64,000 nucleotides of DNA, taken from positions 1,240,001 to 1,304,000 of the forward strand of contig NZ_JADWYI010000001.1 in NCBI RefSeq assembly GCF_016904885.1, written 5' to 3'. Both the position numbers and the translations under genes were made by a program. This DNA comes from Archangium primigenium (GTDB lineage Bacteria > Myxococcota > Myxococcia > Myxococcales > Myxococcaceae). This document shows, one piece after another, positions 14,025-23,799 of the stretch. Numbering within the stretch: the first letter of the stretch is position 1; the number at the start of each line of letters is the position of its first letter. Below the pieces are notes generated by a model. The model saw nothing but the letters and a program-made list of their open reading frames with translations. It was not told the origin of the DNA and ran no database searches.

Positions 14025-14864
14025 ATGAGCAACCTCGACACCTCAAAAGTGCATGACGCCTTCTGGCATGCGGCGAGGCAACTCCTGGATGCCGCGGGGC
14101 CCGACGGCATCGTCAGTCAAAAGGACATCCGCACCAAGCTGGTCTCGCTGCAGGGAAACGAGCGTGATTTCGTCGACGCGTTCTATCGCTTCGTGGTTCA
14201 CCGTGACACCAAGCGCTCCGCCCGGATGACGAAGAAGGACATCCACGCCGCGGTCACCTACGCCGTGGCCGAGCTCGTCGACCGTGTCGATCTCGACAAA
14301 AATGGCCTCTCCGAGGACGAAGTCGCGCTCATGTCCGAGCTTGGCAAGCTCGCCGTCGAATTCGCCAAGTCGCTCAAGCCGACCCAATTCAATGGCCGGA
14401 AGCTCAGTGCGGAGATCAGTGGAATCTCCAATGGAATCGTGTACGACGGCCGATACAATCCTGAGCAAGCCACGAGCATCGAGTCCTTCTTCGCCGAAGC
14501 GAAGCTTGCCCACCTCACCGCCGACGCCTTCCGCCCGCTCATCCGTTTGACGGCAGAATCGCACTATAAGATCGTCACTTTCGAACCCGGGGAGGATAGC
14601 CTCCAGGCCCTCTGCAAGGCGCAGCAAGAGGATTACGACCGGGGGCGGGCACAGGAGATCGTTCAGCTGATGAAGGACAACCTGCGCGAGATCCATAAGG
14701 TGATTGTCGACATCGACAAGGACAAGAGGGGCGAGGCGGGGGCCTCCGAAGACTCCAGGAGATTCGACAACAGGGTTGAAGGCGGCACCTTGTACATCGT
14801 GGGCCTAGACGTCGATGGGAACGTCGCGGGGCTGAAGACCGTTGTCATTCGGGAAGGGGAGTGA
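14025..14864 (+). CDS. NuiA-like protein with an EF-hand-like segment
   Basis: A 279-residue cytoplasmic protein (no signal peptide). The N-terminal part is helical and contains DRVDLDKNGLSEDEV (about residues 85-99), an EF-hand-like loop whose last ligand position is shifted. The C-terminal 110 residues match the pattern I know from nuclease A inhibitor (NuiA)-like proteins: LTAESHYKIVTFEPGED resembles their Ser-Glu-Ser-Asp...Phe start, EIVQLMKDNLREIHKVIVDI their long helix, and GTLYIVGLDVDGNVAGLKT their closing strand pair. NuiA of Anabaena inhibits a non-specific nuclease. I assign the fold as likely, the activity as unknown. The upstream GGAAGGGA gives a ribosome site for ATG 14025. G+C is lower than the flanks and the gene sits beside a decayed ATPase, which suggests recent acquisition. 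Confidence 0.6.
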   Translation: MSNLDTSKVHDAFWHAARQLLDAAGPDGIVSQKDIRTKLVSLQGNERDFVDAFYRFVVHRDTKRSARMTKKDIHAAVTYAVAELVDRVDLDKNGLSEDEVALMSELGKLAVEFAKSLKPTQFNGRKLSAEISGISNGIVYDGRYNPEQATSIESFFAEAKLAHLTADAFRPLIRLTAESHYKIVTFEPGEDSLQALCKAQQEDYDRGRAQEIVQLMKDNLREIHKVIVDIDKDKRGEAGASEDSRRFDNRVEGGTLYIVGLDVDGNVAGLKTVVIREGE

Positions 14865-15758: not shown

Positions 15759-17315
15759 ATGCCGACCGGCCCCGAAGGCTTCTCCGAGCTCTCGCAGTTC
15801 CCACTCGATCGTCACTCCATGCGGCTCCTGCCGGAGTCCCTCTGCCGTCGGCTGCTCGTGGTGGTGCTGGGCAAGGTCGACCCGACGCAGTCCAACGCCC
15901 CGGTGACCATCGGCATGGTGCAGCCGGACGACGAGCACATCCTCCTGCGCATCGGGGACCTGCTCGAGCGGCCCATCCAGCCGGTGCGGCTCAACCGCTA
16001 CGAGATCGAGTCCGCCCTCCAGACGGGCTTCGGGCAGGGGCCGCGCACGGAGGCCCAGCTCGTCATCCGCCCGGCGCCGCCGTCCCGAGGGCCTCCGTCC
16101 GCCGTGGAGATGGTCAATCACATCCTCGCGCAGGCGGTGGACAAGAAGGCCTCGGACATCCACATCGAGAGCTATGCCCAGGACGTGGACGTGCGCCTGC
16201 GCATCGACGGCATCCTCCACCAGATGTACACGGACATGGATCCCGAGTCCGTGCGCGAGGTGGTCAGCCGCATCAAGATCCTCGCCGAGCTGGACATCGC
16301 CGAGCGCCGTCGGCCCCAGGACGGCCGCATCCGGGCGCTCATCGAGCTGCGCGAGGACAAGCGCAAGCTCATCGACTTCCGCGTGAGCGTGGTGCCCAGC
16401 CCCGCGGGCGAGGATGTCGTCATCCGCATCCTGGACGCGCAGGCGGGGCTCGTCCCGGTGGACAAGCTCGGCATGACCGCCGAGATGCAGCGTGTCTTCC
16501 TGCAACTGCTCTCCAACCCCGAGGGGCTCGTGCTGGTGACCGGTCCCACCGGCAGCGGCAAGACGACCACGCTCTACTCGGCCCTGTCCCAGCTCAATGA
16601 CGGGCGGCGGAAGATCATCACCGCCGAGGACCCCATCGAGTACTTCGTCCCCAAGGTCAACCAGAAGCAGGTCAGCGAGCAGATGTCCTATCCGCTGCTG
16701 CTGCGCGCCCTGATGCGCCAGGACCCCAACGTCATCCTCATGGGCGAGGTGCGCGACCTGGAGACGGGGAACACGGCGCTCAACGCGGCGCGCACGGGTC
16801 ACCTCGTGCTGAGCACGCTGCACACGGCGGACGCGGTGGGCGCCATCGGCCGCCTGCGCGGCCTGGAGCTGGACGACACGGACATCGCGGATGCGCTCCT
16901 GGCGGTGCTGGCGCAGCGGCTCGCGCGCCGCGTCTGCGAGAAGTGCTCCACGGAGGCGGTGCTCACCGAGGCGCAGACGGCGCTCTTCGGCGGCCTGTTG
17001 GACGGCCTGCGCCCGCGCAAGGGCCAGGGGTGCGCGCACTGCCACCACACGGGCTATCGCGGCCGTGTCGGCATCTACGAGCTGCTCATGGTGGAGCCAG
17101 GCCTCCAGGACCTGATCGTCACCGGGGCCCACAACGCGCGGCTGCGCGAGCACGCGCGCCAGCACGGCTTCCGGTCGATGGTCGAGGACGCGCTGGACAA
17201 GATTGGCGCGGGGCTGACCACGCTGGACGAGCTGACCCGCGTGGTGCCCTTCCGCCACATCGTCGCCACCCGCGAGGAGCGGCGACGCCAGGGGCTCAGC
17301 AGTTCTTCTGGATGA
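15759..17315 (+). CDS. GspE/PulE/PilB-family secretion or pilus assembly ATPase
   Basis: A 518-residue hexameric ATPase of the type II secretion/type IV pilus assembly group. The central N2 domain is visible in DKKASDIHIESYAQDVDVRL and RLRIDGILHQM. Walker A is GPTGSGKTT (about residues 264-272), the Asp box TAEDPIEY, Walker B VILMGEVRD and the His box GHLVLSTLHTADA. A four-cysteine zinc site (CEKC and CAHC, about residues 393 and 428) is of the GspE/PilB type. The N-terminal domain is short and divergent compared with PilB. No other secretion or pilus gene is nearby except the preceding unknown, so it is an isolated paralog. Its 3' end overlaps the convergent lipoprotein gene by 20 bases. Confidence 0.93.
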   Translation: MPTGPEGFSELSQFPLDRHSMRLLPESLCRRLLVVVLGKVDPTQSNAPVTIGMVQPDDEHILLRIGDLLERPIQPVRLNRYEIESALQTGFGQGPRTEAQLVIRPAPPSRGPPSAVEMVNHILAQAVDKKASDIHIESYAQDVDVRLRIDGILHQMYTDMDPESVREVVSRIKILAELDIAERRRPQDGRIRALIELREDKRKLIDFRVSVVPSPAGEDVVIRILDAQAGLVPVDKLGMTAEMQRVFLQLLSNPEGLVLVTGPTGSGKTTTLYSALSQLNDGRRKIITAEDPIEYFVPKVNQKQVSEQMSYPLLLRALMRQDPNVILMGEVRDLETGNTALNAARTGHLVLSTLHTADAVGAIGRLRGLELDDTDIADALLAVLAQRLARRVCEKCSTEAVLTEAQTALFGGLLDGLRPRKGQGCAHCHHTGYRGRVGIYELLMVEPGLQDLIVTGAHNARLREHARQHGFRSMVEDALDKIGAGLTTLDELTRVVPFRHIVATREERRRQGLSSSSG

Positions 17316-18049: not shown

Positions 18050-18382
18050 ATGCGAATGAAATCAAGAGCTTTGCCCTTGTGGATGTGGGCCTGGTGCTGT
18101 CTGGCCAGCGCCTGTTTGAACGCGGGACCCGAGGCCACCATCGAGGAGCCCACCGCCAGTGAGTCGGCGAAGGCCTTACTGACGGGAGTCGTCGCTTGTA
18201 ACCCCACCAGCACGGCGAATTGCCAGGGCTGCGCGTCCGGCCTGTGCTTGCAGCGACACTCCGGACGGATTTGCACGACCGCGTGCAGTGACACCCAGCC
18301 CTGTGCCACGGGGAAGGAATGCGAGATGCGGCAGACAGGTGCGGGATTGCTCGGGTACTGCGTGCCCACGGGAAGAAATTGA
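18050..18382 (+). CDS. Cysteine-rich lipoprotein coupled to the RHS gene
   Basis: A 110-residue predicted lipoprotein: MRMKSRALPLWMWAWCCLAS followed by ACLN, lipobox LASAC. The mature part carries ten or so cysteines in a compact arrangement (ACNPTSTANCQGCASGLCLQ, ICTTACSDTQPCATGKECEM), resembling disulfide-rich extracellular modules common in myxobacterial surface proteins. ATG 18050 is favoured (GGA ten bases upstream); GTG 18041 is an alternative. The stop overlaps the RHS start codon (TGATG at 18380-18384), so the two are translationally coupled. It may be an accessory or envelope-anchoring partner of the RHS protein; a role as immunity protein is possible but unsupported. Confidence 0.7.
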   Translation: MRMKSRALPLWMWAWCCLASACLNAGPEATIEEPTASESAKALLTGVVACNPTSTANCQGCASGLCLQRHSGRICTTACSDTQPCATGKECEMRQTGAGLLGYCVPTGRN

Positions 18383-21300
18383 TGAGACCCCTTCGGATTC
18401 GTGTGTTGAGTCTTTGTTCCGCGCTGTATGCGTTGTTCCCCGTGGGCGCCGCGGCGCAGCAGCTCTGCAGTCCGTTCGACGCCATTCCCGCGTCGAACGT
18501 CTCCTCGGGCGGCCGCATGGCCGACGTGGCGGCCTGCTGTGATGGCGAGGCCACCGATGAAGGCTGTGGTCCCTGCCGGTGTGCCGAGTGTGGGGATGAG
18601 CCCGCGGAGCGAAACATCGGTCGTCCGGTGGACGTGCTGAATCAGTTCGCCTGGCTGGAGCGGACAGATACCCACCTCGCCATGCCCAATGGGCCCGCCC
18701 TGCTGATGGGCCGGACGTACTCCACCCACTGGGCGCAATCGAAGGGGGGGCGGGATGAGATTGGCCGACTCGGCCCGGGCTGGACGGACACCTATGGCGC
18801 CCGACTGGTCTTCGATGGCAACTCCCCACCCCAGGTCGTGACGTACCGCAAGGCGGACACCGGCACGGAGAACTTCACCCGGCAGCAGGATGGCTCCTAC
18901 GCGGGCCGGATGCCTGGGCGGCGTCTCGTCTATGACTCGGGGACGCAGCGCTGGGTGATGGAGAAGTTCGATGCCAGCACCGAGGTGTTCGATGCGCTCG
19001 GACAACTCGTGCTGCTTCGCGCTCCGGATGGGGGCGAGGCGCAACTGGTGTATGCCGATGGGCTCAGCTGTCCGGTGACCGCGGCCCGACCGGCGGGCGT
19101 GCTGTGCCGGGTGGACTTCCTCTTCGGCCATCAGCTGTGGTTCAGCTATCACGCCACCGCGTGGCCGGGCGCGACCCGACTGGCCGCGGTGTCCCGGGAC
19201 GCCGCGGGCACCCAGCCGCTCGTGCAGTACGCGTACAACACCGGCGGCTACCTGGTGACGGTGACCCAGCCGGACAACCGGCAGGAGCACTACGCCTACG
19301 CCTTCACCCATGCCTTCCCCCGGTACCCCGGTGCCACGGTGAAGCTGTTGACGTCGGCCACGGACGGGGTGGGGGCGCTGGTGGAGTCCTTCACCTACCA
19401 CCAGGAAGTCCTGGGGCAGAGCCGGGTGACGGTCCACGAGAACCCCGAGGGTCGCTACACGTTCTCGGCGGGCCGGGTGCTCTCGACGTCGAGCGTCCGC
19501 ACCACGCATGTGCGGTCGACCCGCGAGAACCTGGACTACACCTGGGAGGGAGGAAAGCTGAAGACGGTCTGTCACAGCAATGCCCAGGGCTGTGATTCGA
19601 GCCGCATCAAGGAAGTCACGGTGCCCGCCACGGGCATCCAGGCCGCGACCTGCGAGCGAGGCTTCGATGGCTTCTACACGCGCTACCTGCGCGACGCGCT
19701 GGGCCGCCGCACCTCGACGCTCCGAGGGCTCGCGAGCTGCGCTAGCCCGACGGATCAGGAACTCGCCCACGAGGTGTTCAAGGGGTACGTGGCCAACTCG
19801 AACCGTGACGCCTACACCGCTCGCAAGAGCGTGGACACGACGGTGGGAACCCAGACGTTCTCGGTGAACGACTACACGGCGCACAGCGCCGCGGTGGACC
19901 CCCTCTGCGGCAATGCCTCCTGCCAGGTCCCCACGGCCTACAACACGCCCGCTTCCGCGCTCACCTCGCAGGTGCAGCAGCGAGTCCGGTTCGGTCGCAC
20001 CCTGGGCAACACCAATGGCACCTGGGTCAACCGCATGGAGGTGACGAAGTTCACCTACAACAGCCAGGGACTGCTGACGCAGAAGGACGGGCCTCTGCCT
20101 GGCACGGCGGATACCTTGACCTATGAGTACTACGACGTGCTGGGCCCCCAGGCGTCGGCGGGTCGGCTCAAGAGGATCCTCCACGGCACCCGGGTGCTCA
20201 CCGAGTACCAGGATTACGATGCCCTGGGGCGTGCCCAGCGGATCCTGAACGAGAGCGGCCAGGCCACGGTCCAGACCTTCGACGCCATGGGCCGGATTCT
20301 CACGGCGCAGGGGCCGGATGACACGCAGCCGACCGTCCTCACCTACACGGCGGCGGGAAAGCAGCAGGAAGTCAAACTGCCCAGCGGCGCTCGCTTGATC
20401 TACAGCCACAACACCCTCGGTCAGATGACCTCCGTGGGCGTGACGAGCACCCCTTCGGGGACGCCTCCGGTCTTCGATGAGGAGATCACGTACGAGTGGG
20501 GGACGGCCCTTGTCGAAGCGGGCCGCATGCTGAGCGAGAGCTACTCGCGCGACGGCGCCGTGGTGCGCACCACCCGCTATGGGTACGACGACCAAGGTCG
20601 CAAGGCGGAGATCCGCTACATGCGGACGGATGGACAGGACAACGAGCGGGCCGCCGTGCACCTCTCGACCTTCGACGAAGACGGGCACCTCACCACCACG
20701 GAGGTGGGCGTGTCCTCGGTGACCGAGGGGAGCGAGACGGACGCACCCACCAATCACATCTATGACCAGCTCCAGCGGCTGTCCCAGGTGACCCGGGGCG
20801 ACTACGTCACCCAGAACCTGCTCTACGATGTGCATCACAACCTCGCGGAGGTGAACGAGACGAGTGTGTTTGGCTCGGGCACTCCGCGGATGCGGTACAA
20901 GTACGATGACTTCGGTCGGCTCGTGGAGGTGACGAGCATCACCCTGGGGACCCGGCGCTATGTCTATGACGAAGCGGGCAATCGGGTGCAGGAACTCGTG
21001 CCGACCGGAGAGGTCCTGACCACGGCGTATGATGCGCGTGGCCGGGCCCTGTCCATCACGGGGCCGGACTACTCCGTGAGCTTCACCCACGACACGGATG
21101 CGGCCAGTATGATCCTCGATTGCGCGACGGGCACGGCGCTCGGGGCCAGCCAGGGAATGGGTCGCCTCACGGCGGTGACGGAGCCTTCGGGCAACACCTA
21201 CTTCGGGTACACCGTGGGAGGGCGGCCGCGCTTCGAGGCGAGGGTTGCTCCAGGCGCCACCTGCGCGAAGACCATGCGATGGGAATACAATACCAACGGT

Positions 21301-23799
21301 ACCTTCGCCGCCTTGCGCTACCCCAGTGGTGCGCGCATCCGTTACGACTACCCCACGGGTGTGCTGCATGCCCGTGAGCTCTCCGCGATGGTGCTGGAGG
21401 TGGGAGCCTCGTCCATTCCTCTCACGACGGGCCTGGTCTGGTCGGGTGGGGGACTCAGGGCCTACTCCGCGGGCAATGGTCTCATGTGGAGTCTGTCGCG
21501 CTGGATGGATGGTGCTCCGCGTGAGTGGAAGCTCACCCAGGGCCCTGGCGGTGCGTTGGTCCGCAACCGTGTCTTTGGCGAAGAGGTGAACGGTACGCTC
21601 GAGCCTCGCGTGAACGGACGCGGCAGTCCCAATCGCATCGAGGAGAACGTTCCGGCTTGGACTCGAGGCTACACGTACGAGCCCGGGACGGGACGCCTGA
21701 TGATCGACAGCAGTCCGGATTACGTGGAGCAGTACCTCTACACGACGGATGACAACCGTTCCTTCTCCTTCGGCTCTTTCCCCCAGAATTCGGGCATGAG
21801 CAGGACCTCGTCGTACACGTACAACAACAGCAACAACTCTCGTCTGTCGAGTGTCAGCACCACGGAAAGCCCGTCCGGTCCCACCACCACTCGAACGTTC
21901 ACTTACTCCACGAGTGGCATGGTCACCCAGGTGAACACGGGCGGCAGGCTGGCGGCCATGTGCTACGACAGTCGCGAGCAGGTAGGCGCCGTGGTGGGGC
22001 CGGGCGGCCAGTACAGTCGGCAGCACTTCAACTACCGGCGGCAGCGTGTCCGCGAGGTGTGGCCGCTCAACGAGTTGGTGACGGATTACTGGGTGGACAG
22101 CGGTGGGTCGCTGCTTGTGGAGACGGGCGCGGCGAGTCTCACCACCCAATACCCCCGGCCTGTCTGGGAGTACGTCTACCTGAATGGCATGCCCGTGGCC
22201 CGCGTGGACTCGGTGGAGGCCGTGAATGGCACCACCACGTACCAGGGAGTCACCTGGCTGTTCGGAGGTCACCTGGGTGAGCTGTTGGTGGAGGCGGACG
22301 CCGACGGTCACGTGATCCGCAACTACGATTATTCGTCGTTCGGTGCCCGCACGGCGCGGCCGACGCCCGCGGTGCCGTCGAACGTCGTCCTGAGCCGCGC
22401 GGCTCCGTCGACCCAGGTGGTGTTGCCTGCCTCCGCCTCGGCGGTGTTGCGCTTCACCAACTACGCCCTGGCGTCCTGTGACAGCGTGGCGGTGGTGGAT
22501 GCGGAGGGACACCTGCTCAAGCGGTTGTCCGCGAGTCAGTCGGCTCAATTCGAGACGGCGAGCCTGCCGGCGCAGGGGGCCTCGATCCAGGTGGTGTTGG
22601 AGCCGGGAGCGTGCGCGGGTCCGTCCTCCTTCACCCTCGCGGAGGTCAAGCCGACCTGGGGCCGTGCCTCGGAAACGGTCCTGACGGGCCATGCCTCTCC
22701 CCATCCCTATCCCGCGGCGGGGTCCACGACCACGCTCTCGCTGTCGTCTCCCTCGCACCTGCTCGTGGAGAGCCACCTGGCGGATTGTGACAGCCTCGAG
22801 GTGCGCCGGAGCGTCACGGGTGAGGTCTTGTGGACCTGGCCGCACGATGGCGGTGTACTGCGCACCGCCTGGACGCCCGAACTGTCCGGGAGCGTGGACG
22901 TGGGCATCTGGAGCAGCGCGGGCTGCAACCAGGGCCAGCAGCAAGCGGGCTTCGCCGTGCTCCGTCAGTACACGCGGCAATCCCCGGGTGCTGCCTCCAA
23001 CCTGCACTACCCGGGACAGCGCAAGCTCGTCGCCGCGGCCAATACCCGCCGGGGCGCGTTCATGGAGCCCGAGGCGGATCTGCTGGAGAACTGGTTCCGT
23101 GTCTATGAGCCTGGTACGGGACGGTACATGCAGCCCGAGCCGTTGGCGTCGGTGGTCCCGGGCATGTCCCTCGGCTCCACATATGGGTACGCCGACAACA
23201 ACCCCCTAGGTGCTGTTGATCCAACGGGGCTCTTCACGCTGTCACCTGGCGCCCCAATCTGCAACAACTGGGATGAGGCGCTCAAACTCGCGAGAAAAAA
23301 GGCGGGTTGTGACGGTGGATGCAAGAAGTGCAAGACGCCGTGTGACGTCTGCCAGATGCTTCAAAGCGATACATACCCCATCGTTTACCTGATTGAGGTT
23401 CTCCAGAATACCGAACACGTAAACGATACTCGGGTCAAAGGTCGAGTTACCATCCAGGCGCATACGGATTATTGGAAGCAGATGAGTCCTATTATTTATC
23501 CGCAGACGGAGGAGTTGAACTCGTTTGCCAGAGGAATCTGGCCGGGAATGGAGGAGGGATACCACTACACAGTCGCGTTCAAGAAGAGTCTTTGCAATAA
23601 GCCAGTCAAGGGGTCCGAGTACATTGGAAAAGACAATCTGGAGAATCTCGCGATGGCGATGCTCCATGAGTCGATTCATATGTGCATGGCTTCGGGGATT
23701 GTGAGCGAGGAAACACTGGATGATCGGCCTTTGAGTTTGAACAGTCCTTGGACGACGGATACGCAAGACGTGGTGGACCAGTGCTGGAAGCAGAAGTGA
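18382..23799 (+). CDS. Exported RHS-repeat protein with HExxH C-terminal tip
   Basis: A 1805-residue secreted RHS/YD-repeat protein. A signal peptide (RVLSLCSALYALFPVGAAA) is followed by YD repeats such as YDALGRAQRILNESG and YDDFGRLVEV. RHS shells are hollow beta-cocoons around a C-terminal toxin. The core motif is present near 23100-23235 (YEPGTGRYMQPEPL, YGYADNNPLGAVDPTGLF). The variable tip (residues about 1617-1805) has a five-cysteine cluster (CDGGCKKCKTPCDVC) and HESIH (1762-1766), an HExxH zinc metallopeptidase signature. The tip DNA is clearly poorer in G+C than the shell, as expected for exchanged tips. ATG 18382 follows directly from the upstream lipoprotein stop. No obvious immunity gene follows; the next gene is a polysaccharide ligase starting one base after the stop. 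Confidence 0.88.
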   Translation: MRPLRIRVLSLCSALYALFPVGAAAQQLCSPFDAIPASNVSSGGRMADVAACCDGEATDEGCGPCRCAECGDEPAERNIGRPVDVLNQFAWLERTDTHLAMPNGPALLMGRTYSTHWAQSKGGRDEIGRLGPGWTDTYGARLVFDGNSPPQVVTYRKADTGTENFTRQQDGSYAGRMPGRRLVYDSGTQRWVMEKFDASTEVFDALGQLVLLRAPDGGEAQLVYADGLSCPVTAARPAGVLCRVDFLFGHQLWFSYHATAWPGATRLAAVSRDAAGTQPLVQYAYNTGGYLVTVTQPDNRQEHYAYAFTHAFPRYPGATVKLLTSATDGVGALVESFTYHQEVLGQSRVTVHENPEGRYTFSAGRVLSTSSVRTTHVRSTRENLDYTWEGGKLKTVCHSNAQGCDSSRIKEVTVPATGIQAATCERGFDGFYTRYLRDALGRRTSTLRGLASCASPTDQELAHEVFKGYVANSNRDAYTARKSVDTTVGTQTFSVNDYTAHSAAVDPLCGNASCQVPTAYNTPASALTSQVQQRVRFGRTLGNTNGTWVNRMEVTKFTYNSQGLLTQKDGPLPGTADTLTYEYYDVLGPQASAGRLKRILHGTRVLTEYQDYDALGRAQRILNESGQATVQTFDAMGRILTAQGPDDTQPTVLTYTAAGKQQEVKLPSGARLIYSHNTLGQMTSVGVTSTPSGTPPVFDEEITYEWGTALVEAGRMLSESYSRDGAVVRTTRYGYDDQGRKAEIRYMRTDGQDNERAAVHLSTFDEDGHLTTTEVGVSSVTEGSETDAPTNHIYDQLQRLSQVTRGDYVTQNLLYDVHHNLAEVNETSVFGSGTPRMRYKYDDFGRLVEVTSITLGTRRYVYDEAGNRVQELVPTGEVLTTAYDARGRALSITGPDYSVSFTHDTDAASMILDCATGTALGASQGMGRLTAVTEPSGNTYFGYTVGGRPRFEARVAPGATCAKTMRWEYNTNGTFAALRYPSGARIRYDYPTGVLHARELSAMVLEVGASSIPLTTGLVWSGGGLRAYSAGNGLMWSLSRWMDGAPREWKLTQGPGGALVRNRVFGEEVNGTLEPRVNGRGSPNRIEENVPAWTRGYTYEPGTGRLMIDSSPDYVEQYLYTTDDNRSFSFGSFPQNSGMSRTSSYTYNNSNNSRLSSVSTTESPSGPTTTRTFTYSTSGMVTQVNTGGRLAAMCYDSREQVGAVVGPGGQYSRQHFNYRRQRVREVWPLNELVTDYWVDSGGSLLVETGAASLTTQYPRPVWEYVYLNGMPVARVDSVEAVNGTTTYQGVTWLFGGHLGELLVEADADGHVIRNYDYSSFGARTARPTPAVPSNVVLSRAAPSTQVVLPASASAVLRFTNYALASCDSVAVVDAEGHLLKRLSASQSAQFETASLPAQGASIQVVLEPGACAGPSSFTLAEVKPTWGRASETVLTGHASPHPYPAAGSTTTLSLSSPSHLLVESHLADCDSLEVRRSVTGEVLWTWPHDGGVLRTAWTPELSGSVDVGIWSSAGCNQGQQQAGFAVLRQYTRQSPGAASNLHYPGQRKLVAAANTRRGAFMEPEADLLENWFRVYEPGTGRYMQPEPLASVVPGMSLGSTYGYADNNPLGAVDPTGLFTLSPGAPICNNWDEALKLARKKAGCDGGCKKCKTPCDVCQMLQSDTYPIVYLIEVLQNTEHVNDTRVKGRVTIQAHTDYWKQMSPIIYPQTEELNSFARGIWPGMEEGYHYTVAFKKSLCNKPVKGSEYIGKDNLENLAMAMLHESIHMCMASGIVSEETLDDRPLSLNSPWTTDTQDVVDQCWKQK

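Follow-up and report, generated by a model that had tools for sequence, protein, structure and literature searches.

A myxobacterial family joining an EF-hand-like domain to a NuiA-like domain, and a copy that lacks the terminal threonine

NuiA, known mainly from one cyanobacterium, is the textbook example of an inhibitor that blocks DRGH nucleases through a metal bridge. In the 2007 NucA-NuiA structure by Ghosh et al., Glu-24 and the C-terminal Thr-135 of the inhibitor are said to reach the metal site of the nuclease, the terminal Thr reportedly as a ligand of the catalytic metal, and Asp-75 and Trp-76 are said to form a second contact. A passage in PMC5758888 describes NuiA as a competitive inhibitor that binds at the substrate site, and it is a tight intracellular inhibitor, with a pKd of 11.49 as cited in a passage of PMC5374557. 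The canonical EF-hand loop, as set out in a part of PMC3123361, carries its ligands at positions 1, 3, 5, 7, 9 and 12. A survey of the open-licence literature at search level found no description of an architecture with an EF-hand-like domain and NuiA, or with chagasin and an EF-hand. The two-domain family considered here, in which a calmodulin-like calcium-loop domain is followed by a domain resembling NuiA, is undescribed. A myxobacterial radiation that keeps the two active-site residues of NuiA together with an EF-hand-like module would provide natural variants for tests of the metal bridge and of a possible Ca2+ control, and the occurrence of the same module on a chagasin-type inhibitor extends the set. 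The copy that we started from is a natural loss of the C-terminal Thr, ready for comparison.

The gene, its copies and its surroundings

The window is the whole stretch of DNA that was analysed, 64,000 nucleotides long (C1:1240001-1304000 of a 9.49 Mb genome). The features of the gene and its paralogues are the following.

14025..14864, + strand: CDS with EF-hand-like and NuiA-like domains (orphan copy), 279 aa; homologues, M1 in 51/51 distinct N-terminal domains
14025..14378, + strand: N-terminal EF-hand-like domain, residues 1-118; AF2 model, structural matches
14091..14126, + strand: loop 1, residues 23-34; EF spacing, Ala and Gly at positions 1 and 3 (degenerate)
14205..14240, + strand: loop 2, residues 61-72; degenerate, spaced like an EF loop, with D retained at positions 1 and 12 but K at position 3 and S/G at position 5
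14289..14321, + strand: loop 3, a candidate metal loop of 11 residues (89-99, DLDKNGLSEDE) with the pattern D-x-[DN]-x-[ND]-G-L-S-x-x-E
14382..14855, + strand: C-terminal NuiA-like domain, residues 120-277; VIA-align and Foldseek, PF07924 below threshold here and above threshold in the paralogues
14463..14465, + strand: codon of Glu147, equivalent to NuiA Glu-24; alignment, E in 37/37
14850..14861, + strand: C-terminus ending in R-E-G-E, aberrant because the family otherwise ends in Trp/Glu-Thr; alignment (36/37 end in Thr, this copy does not), DNA
C1:5369931-5370716: paralogue L002, full-length copy in the same genome
C1:7746564-7747376: paralogue L003, full-length copy in the same genome

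The ORF had been proposed by the initial annotation, and the evidence is that it is a real gene. It runs from an ATG at 14025 to a stop codon at 14862-14864, giving 279 aa, and purine-rich AAGGAAGGG lies immediately upstream. The chance of an open frame of this length is P ~1e-4 at the local G+C of 0.60, the G+C by codon position is coding-like (0.63/0.37/0.80), and many homologues were found, including two full-length paralogues in the same genome that are 54% and 51% identical to the window protein. The third-position G+C is 0.80 in the window copy vs 0.94 and 0.84 in the paralogues. Comparison of the DNA upstream of the three paralogues revealed no homology.

An initial genome scan with the window protein alone as query confirmed none of its 38 candidates. 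Matches to the window protein were present in 24 of the 145 genomes of the order, and profile matches, some of them to a single domain only, in 43 of the phylum's 195 genomes. When 84,980 species, each represented by one genome, were scanned with a pattern, in a collection from which records near the source genome are possibly absent, 42 loci were confirmed, which by their titles nearly all belong to Myxococcales or Deltaproteobacteria, with one from Bacteroidota. Genes around the loci were called with a simple home-made gene caller. The joining of a NuiA-type domain to an EF-hand-like domain is supported by the sequences of the relatives and by structure; the combination is not unique, since at least 16 further full-length proteins (six of the window type and 10 others) and one 5'-truncated protein carry the same domain pair.

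The same annotation placed the gene in an imported patch next to a decayed ATPase; the import is unproven, and the decay is refuted. The gene at 15759-17315 encodes an intact ATPase of T2SS/T4P type, with a T2SSE match that extends to the end of the profile (positions 9-370 of 370, E 1.3e-111) and an MshEN domain, and decay was ruled out by this match. The evidence for import consists of a local dip in G+C (~0.60, vs mostly 0.65-0.79 elsewhere in the window). Searches of phage and plasmid collections returned no match to the window protein, and the genome carries two further copies while no copy was found in three congeneric genomes, a distribution that fits loss as well as transfer; recent import was set aside as unproven. 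Positions 18382-23799 of the window encode a large protein with repeats of YD/Rhs type, which has an HEXXH-like motif (HESIH) close to its C-terminus.

The NuiA-like domain and its C-terminus

The window protein itself scores below the cut-off of PF07924 (E 0.033; 14.9 bits against 22.1), and its paralogues score above it, with 33.5 and 28.1 bits in the genome search and 32.1 and 26.9 bits as whole proteins. A more distant relative, L085, matches the profile with E 8.5e-21 and the NuiA chain 2o3b_B with E 2e-11. The match of the window protein to NuiA, sub-threshold when taken alone, is secure because its relatives pass the cut-off. An AlphaFold2 model of the window protein, built on an input alignment of 24 sequences, has a mean pLDDT of 87.6. 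In Foldseek, 2o3b_B was the sole match under E 0.001 (E 8.9e-6, prob 1.00), and VIA-align superposed the model on 2o3b_B with Z 14.3 over 128 aligned residues at 2.4 A; the runner-up was another NuiA structure with Z 6.0, and unrelated entries reached at most 5.3. The structural similarity on which the annotation was staked is thus present, but extends over more than the C-terminal third that had been assigned to it, as residues 120-277 of the model align to the entire NuiA. Sequence and predicted structure together identify the C-terminal half as a genuine homologue of NuiA. It shares the whole-domain fold of Anabaena NuiA (2o3b_B, 1j57, 1ktu; PF07924) and differs from it in having the EF-hand-like domain at its N-terminus, four additional residues ahead of the Glu and an extended loop around residues 230-252.

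The residues that contact the nuclease in NuiA were counted in a single MAFFT alignment of NuiA with 37 NuiA-like domains, which stand behind several N-terminal partners and of which several are close relatives. L037 and L054, for which the gene caller chose another frame, were left out, as were L061 (below the Pfam cut-off, a protein without a terminal Thr), L052, L053 and L055-L060 (duplicates of genes in the set) and profile matches for which no locus was issued. The equivalent of Glu-24 is Glu in all 37 domains, including the window protein. The relatives end in Thr as NuiA does: 36 of the 37 domains have Thr as their final residue, and the window protein, which ends in R-E-G-E, is the exception. 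A one-base reading error as the cause of the missing Thr was examined and rejected, since the other two frames past the last conserved residues give no nearby Trp-Thr-stop. The second contact site of NuiA, Asp-75/Trp-76, is also lacking in the window protein, which has Glu and Asp there, and Trp occurs at this site in one of the 37 domains. In our view, the strict retention of a free C-terminal Thr is the best evidence that the family would act by the NuiA mechanism, and by the same token the loss of this Thr is evidence against the mechanism, or for a weaker action, in the window copy. The window copy is thus a homologue by fold, and functional inhibition of the NuiA type is predicted for its relatives only and is doubtful for the copy itself.

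The EF-hand-like module

The N-terminal domain is modelled with a pLDDT mostly of 80-96 over residues 1-118; it is helical, and short bridges occur at residues 4, 30, 68 and 95. Three loops separate the helices, each with one bridging residue (30, 68 and 95) as in EF-hand pairs, and these helix-loop-helix pairs with bridged loops are what the window protein has in common with EF-hand proteins. The model matches several EF-hand proteins, among them bacterial lanmodulin (8fnr, 8dq2), to which it aligns over 91-92 residues at 4.4 A with Z 4.8, which is below 8. For a model of L118, a relative without a NuiA domain, 32 of the 39 structural rows over the N-terminal domain carry the title of an EF-hand protein, in many cases calmodulin. 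The EF-hand Z values of both models are all below 8 and, if taken alone, could reflect a common arrangement. In Pfam searches of 21 members with E up to 1, all matches were weak; EF-hand_1 was the family matched by most members (10/21, best E 0.0067), followed by EF-hand_6 (9/21, best E 0.0026).

Across 51 distinct domains, position 5 of loop 1 is retained and its position 12 stays acidic, but Ala and Gly predominate at its positions 1 and 3; in loop 2, position 1 is retained and position 12 mostly so. In loop 3, D89, [DN]91, [ND]93, G94 and E99 are present in all 51 domains. It is one residue shorter than the canonical EF loop, with ligands at 1, 3 and 5 and the Glu at 11. The window protein thus differs from EF-hand proteins in that loops 1 and 2 lack the ligands at 1 and 3 or at 3 and 5 and loop 3 has 11 residues, so that none of the three has the canonical 12 residues together with ligands at positions 1, 3, 5 and 12. 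It also differs from them, lanmodulin included, in having no evident export signal. The window copy deviates at four columns of the N-terminal domain that are at least 90% conserved. A single metal site of unusual geometry in loop 3 is plausible from the sequence conservation. The calcium switch that had been suggested for the protein would depend on this one loop, a candidate site of high conservation and non-canonical spacing.

The module is found with several cargoes. In the 42 loci it stands alone in 17 (<190 aa) and precedes a NuiA domain in 10 and in one 5'-truncated protein; in nine it precedes a domain that we call type B. The remaining loci comprise one with a chagasin-type inhibitor, one with a type C domain, two with other sequence and one that ends at a contig edge. 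In the chagasin-type case (L095:6001-6684), the likeness to the window protein is the N-terminal module joined to inhibitor-type cargo, but the cargo belongs to an unrelated family of peptidase inhibitors, I42 (PF09394, E 7.7e-14). A fold search with the type B cargo of L118 gave a best Foldseek E of 0.1 and a best structural row of Z 3.9, the weak rows including a BLIP-like protein. The module also occurs in tandem within one protein (L151:1117-1887 and L153:1468-2241). HHalign of the N-terminal domains gave a probability of 68% over 39 columns to another N-terminus that precedes NuiA and 7% to the N-terminus of the nucleases described below, and common descent of these modules is therefore not demonstrated.

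Partner genes, nucleases and readings of the window copy

In six of the seven window-type copies, the next gene on the same strand encodes a protein of 545-666 aa with a VWA-like C-terminal part. The similarity is below the curated cut-offs throughout (two of the proteins were tested against TIGR03436 and matched with E 0.0005-0.002; for L063, Pfam VWA gave E 0.095). The partner in L063 has in addition a choice-of-anchor K domain (E 2.6e-34). These genes (L062:3861-5858, L063:3756-5393, L064:6656-8656, and those in L065-L067) have no evident signal peptide, and their N-terminal half is variable, the choice-of-anchor K domain setting L063 apart from the others. No trace of the partner gene was found at the window locus. 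In 14 of the 42 loci (L085, L086, L087, L093, L098, L099, L105, L108, L109, L111, L112, L113, L115 and L120), a small SCP2-like gene lies directly upstream of the module gene, at a distance of 16-161 bases, with one copy confirmed by Pfam (E 2e-6). The idea of a T6SS/SCP2 adaptor was followed into the literature, where no SCP2 paper was among the top matches.

The genome has two genes for Endonuclease_NS proteins (PF01223), one of which, L083, encodes 461 aa; EF-like loops precede its DRGH nuclease, and a signal peptide is not evident. Similarly organised relatives were found in 15 other myxobacterial genomes among those fetched.

L083:1351-2736 and L158-L172: Endonuclease_NS proteins, 420-500 aa, with EF-like N-terminal loops

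These proteins resemble the window protein in placing EF-like loops before a nuclease-related domain, by eye without a signal peptide. They differ in carrying the DRGH nuclease itself, and HHalign gives only the 7% above for homology of the N-termini. NuiA and PF01223 co-occur without statistical significance (21/30 genomes with NuiA vs 59/115 without, p 0.098), and no nuclease gene was found adjacent to the window copy or its six closest copies. A matched pair of inhibitor and nuclease is thus no more than a lead.

In our view the locus is best explained, with the balance of probability somewhat on this side, as a diverged orphan of a two-domain protein family from myxobacteria. In the intact members, the C-terminal domain would bind the active site of a beta-beta-alpha-metal nuclease of the Endonuclease_NS type, and the Glu and free C-terminal Thr would reach the catalytic metal in the manner of Anabaena NuiA. 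The EF-hand-like domain would hold at most one metal, probably Ca2+, in loop 3, and most likely serves for docking or stabilisation, linking cargo of inhibitor type to a partner, namely the VWA-like protein in the clade of the window copy and the SCP2-like protein in others. The window copy would then probably be a weakened, retired or retargeted inhibitor. Its frame is open and it keeps loop 3 and the Glu, but it lacks the partner gene and the terminal Thr, and it is doubtful as an inhibitor because both have been lost. Its branch is the longest of the clade, with 0.80 changes per column vs 0.045-0.33 for the six other close copies. That it is a diverged orphan whose inhibition of the NuiA type is probably impaired seems to us slightly better supported by the sequence than the contrary, and that it has been retargeted is possible and rather unlikely. 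Several observations sit uneasily with the explanation as a whole: the Asp-75/Trp-76 site is not kept, nuclease genes are absent beside the copies and co-occur with NuiA insignificantly, the EF-hand Z values are low, and the spacing of loop 3 is non-canonical. The intact and coding-like frame implies moreover that the window copy may still be functional.

This last point is the starting point for supposing that the copy is fully active and that its altered C-terminus directs it to another nuclease. The open frame, the coding-like G+C, the retained Glu-24 equivalent and loop 3 and the high-confidence NuiA fold would all be expected, but the copy is the only one of 37 without the terminal Thr, has the longest branch of its clade and lacks a partner gene, which leaves such a change of specificity unlikely. 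A role in a toxin-immunity pair, as its antitoxin or immunity protein, was also considered. NuiA is a tight intracellular inhibitor (pKd 11.49, in the passage of PMC5374557), and nucA/nuiA has been engineered as a kill switch (PMC4890671). Nevertheless, toxin or nuclease genes were found adjacent neither to the window copy nor to the six close copies, the conserved neighbours being VWA-like or SCP2-like, and at least one other inhibitor cargo carries the same N-terminal module; we consider this role very improbable. The antitoxin or anti-nuclease factor of the initial annotation accordingly fares better for the relatives, which from their sequences look like working inhibitors, than for the window copy, where the loss of the terminal Thr and the absence of a neighbouring nuclease gene make it doubtful. 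It is likewise improbable that the NuiA fold now serves for binding without a nuclease target, in a structural protein such as a component of a VWA/choice-of-anchor complex. The choice-of-anchor K and VWA similarity of the L063 partner, the unkept Asp-75/Trp-76 site and the weak co-occurrence with PF01223 are consistent with repurposing, but the strict retention of the Glu and the free terminal Thr in 36 of 37 domains, across different N-terminal partners, would be difficult to account for without contact with an active site.

A wider proposal, which we regard as speculative and not likely, takes in the whole family. With a new EF-hand-like carrier module, myxobacteria would assemble a toolkit of inhibitors of hydrolases (nuclease, cysteine peptidase and perhaps others), docked in a Ca2+-dependent manner to VWA-like or SCP2-like partners; the clade-wide EF-like nuclease would be the matching target, with Ca2+ setting when the nuclease is free, and the window copy would be losing its inhibitor end.

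Two further arrangements were observed. In L107, L114, L116, L119 and L121, the gene after a stand-alone module encodes a large protein that resembles IucA/IucC and FhuF-like proteins, as tested for L121. NuiA domains are also found on other N-termini, including apparent lipoproteins; in L043, L046, L048, L049 and L051, the NuiA domain ends lipoprotein-like proteins with repeated helical segments, and the nuclease-inhibitor fold may be exported to the envelope in these five.
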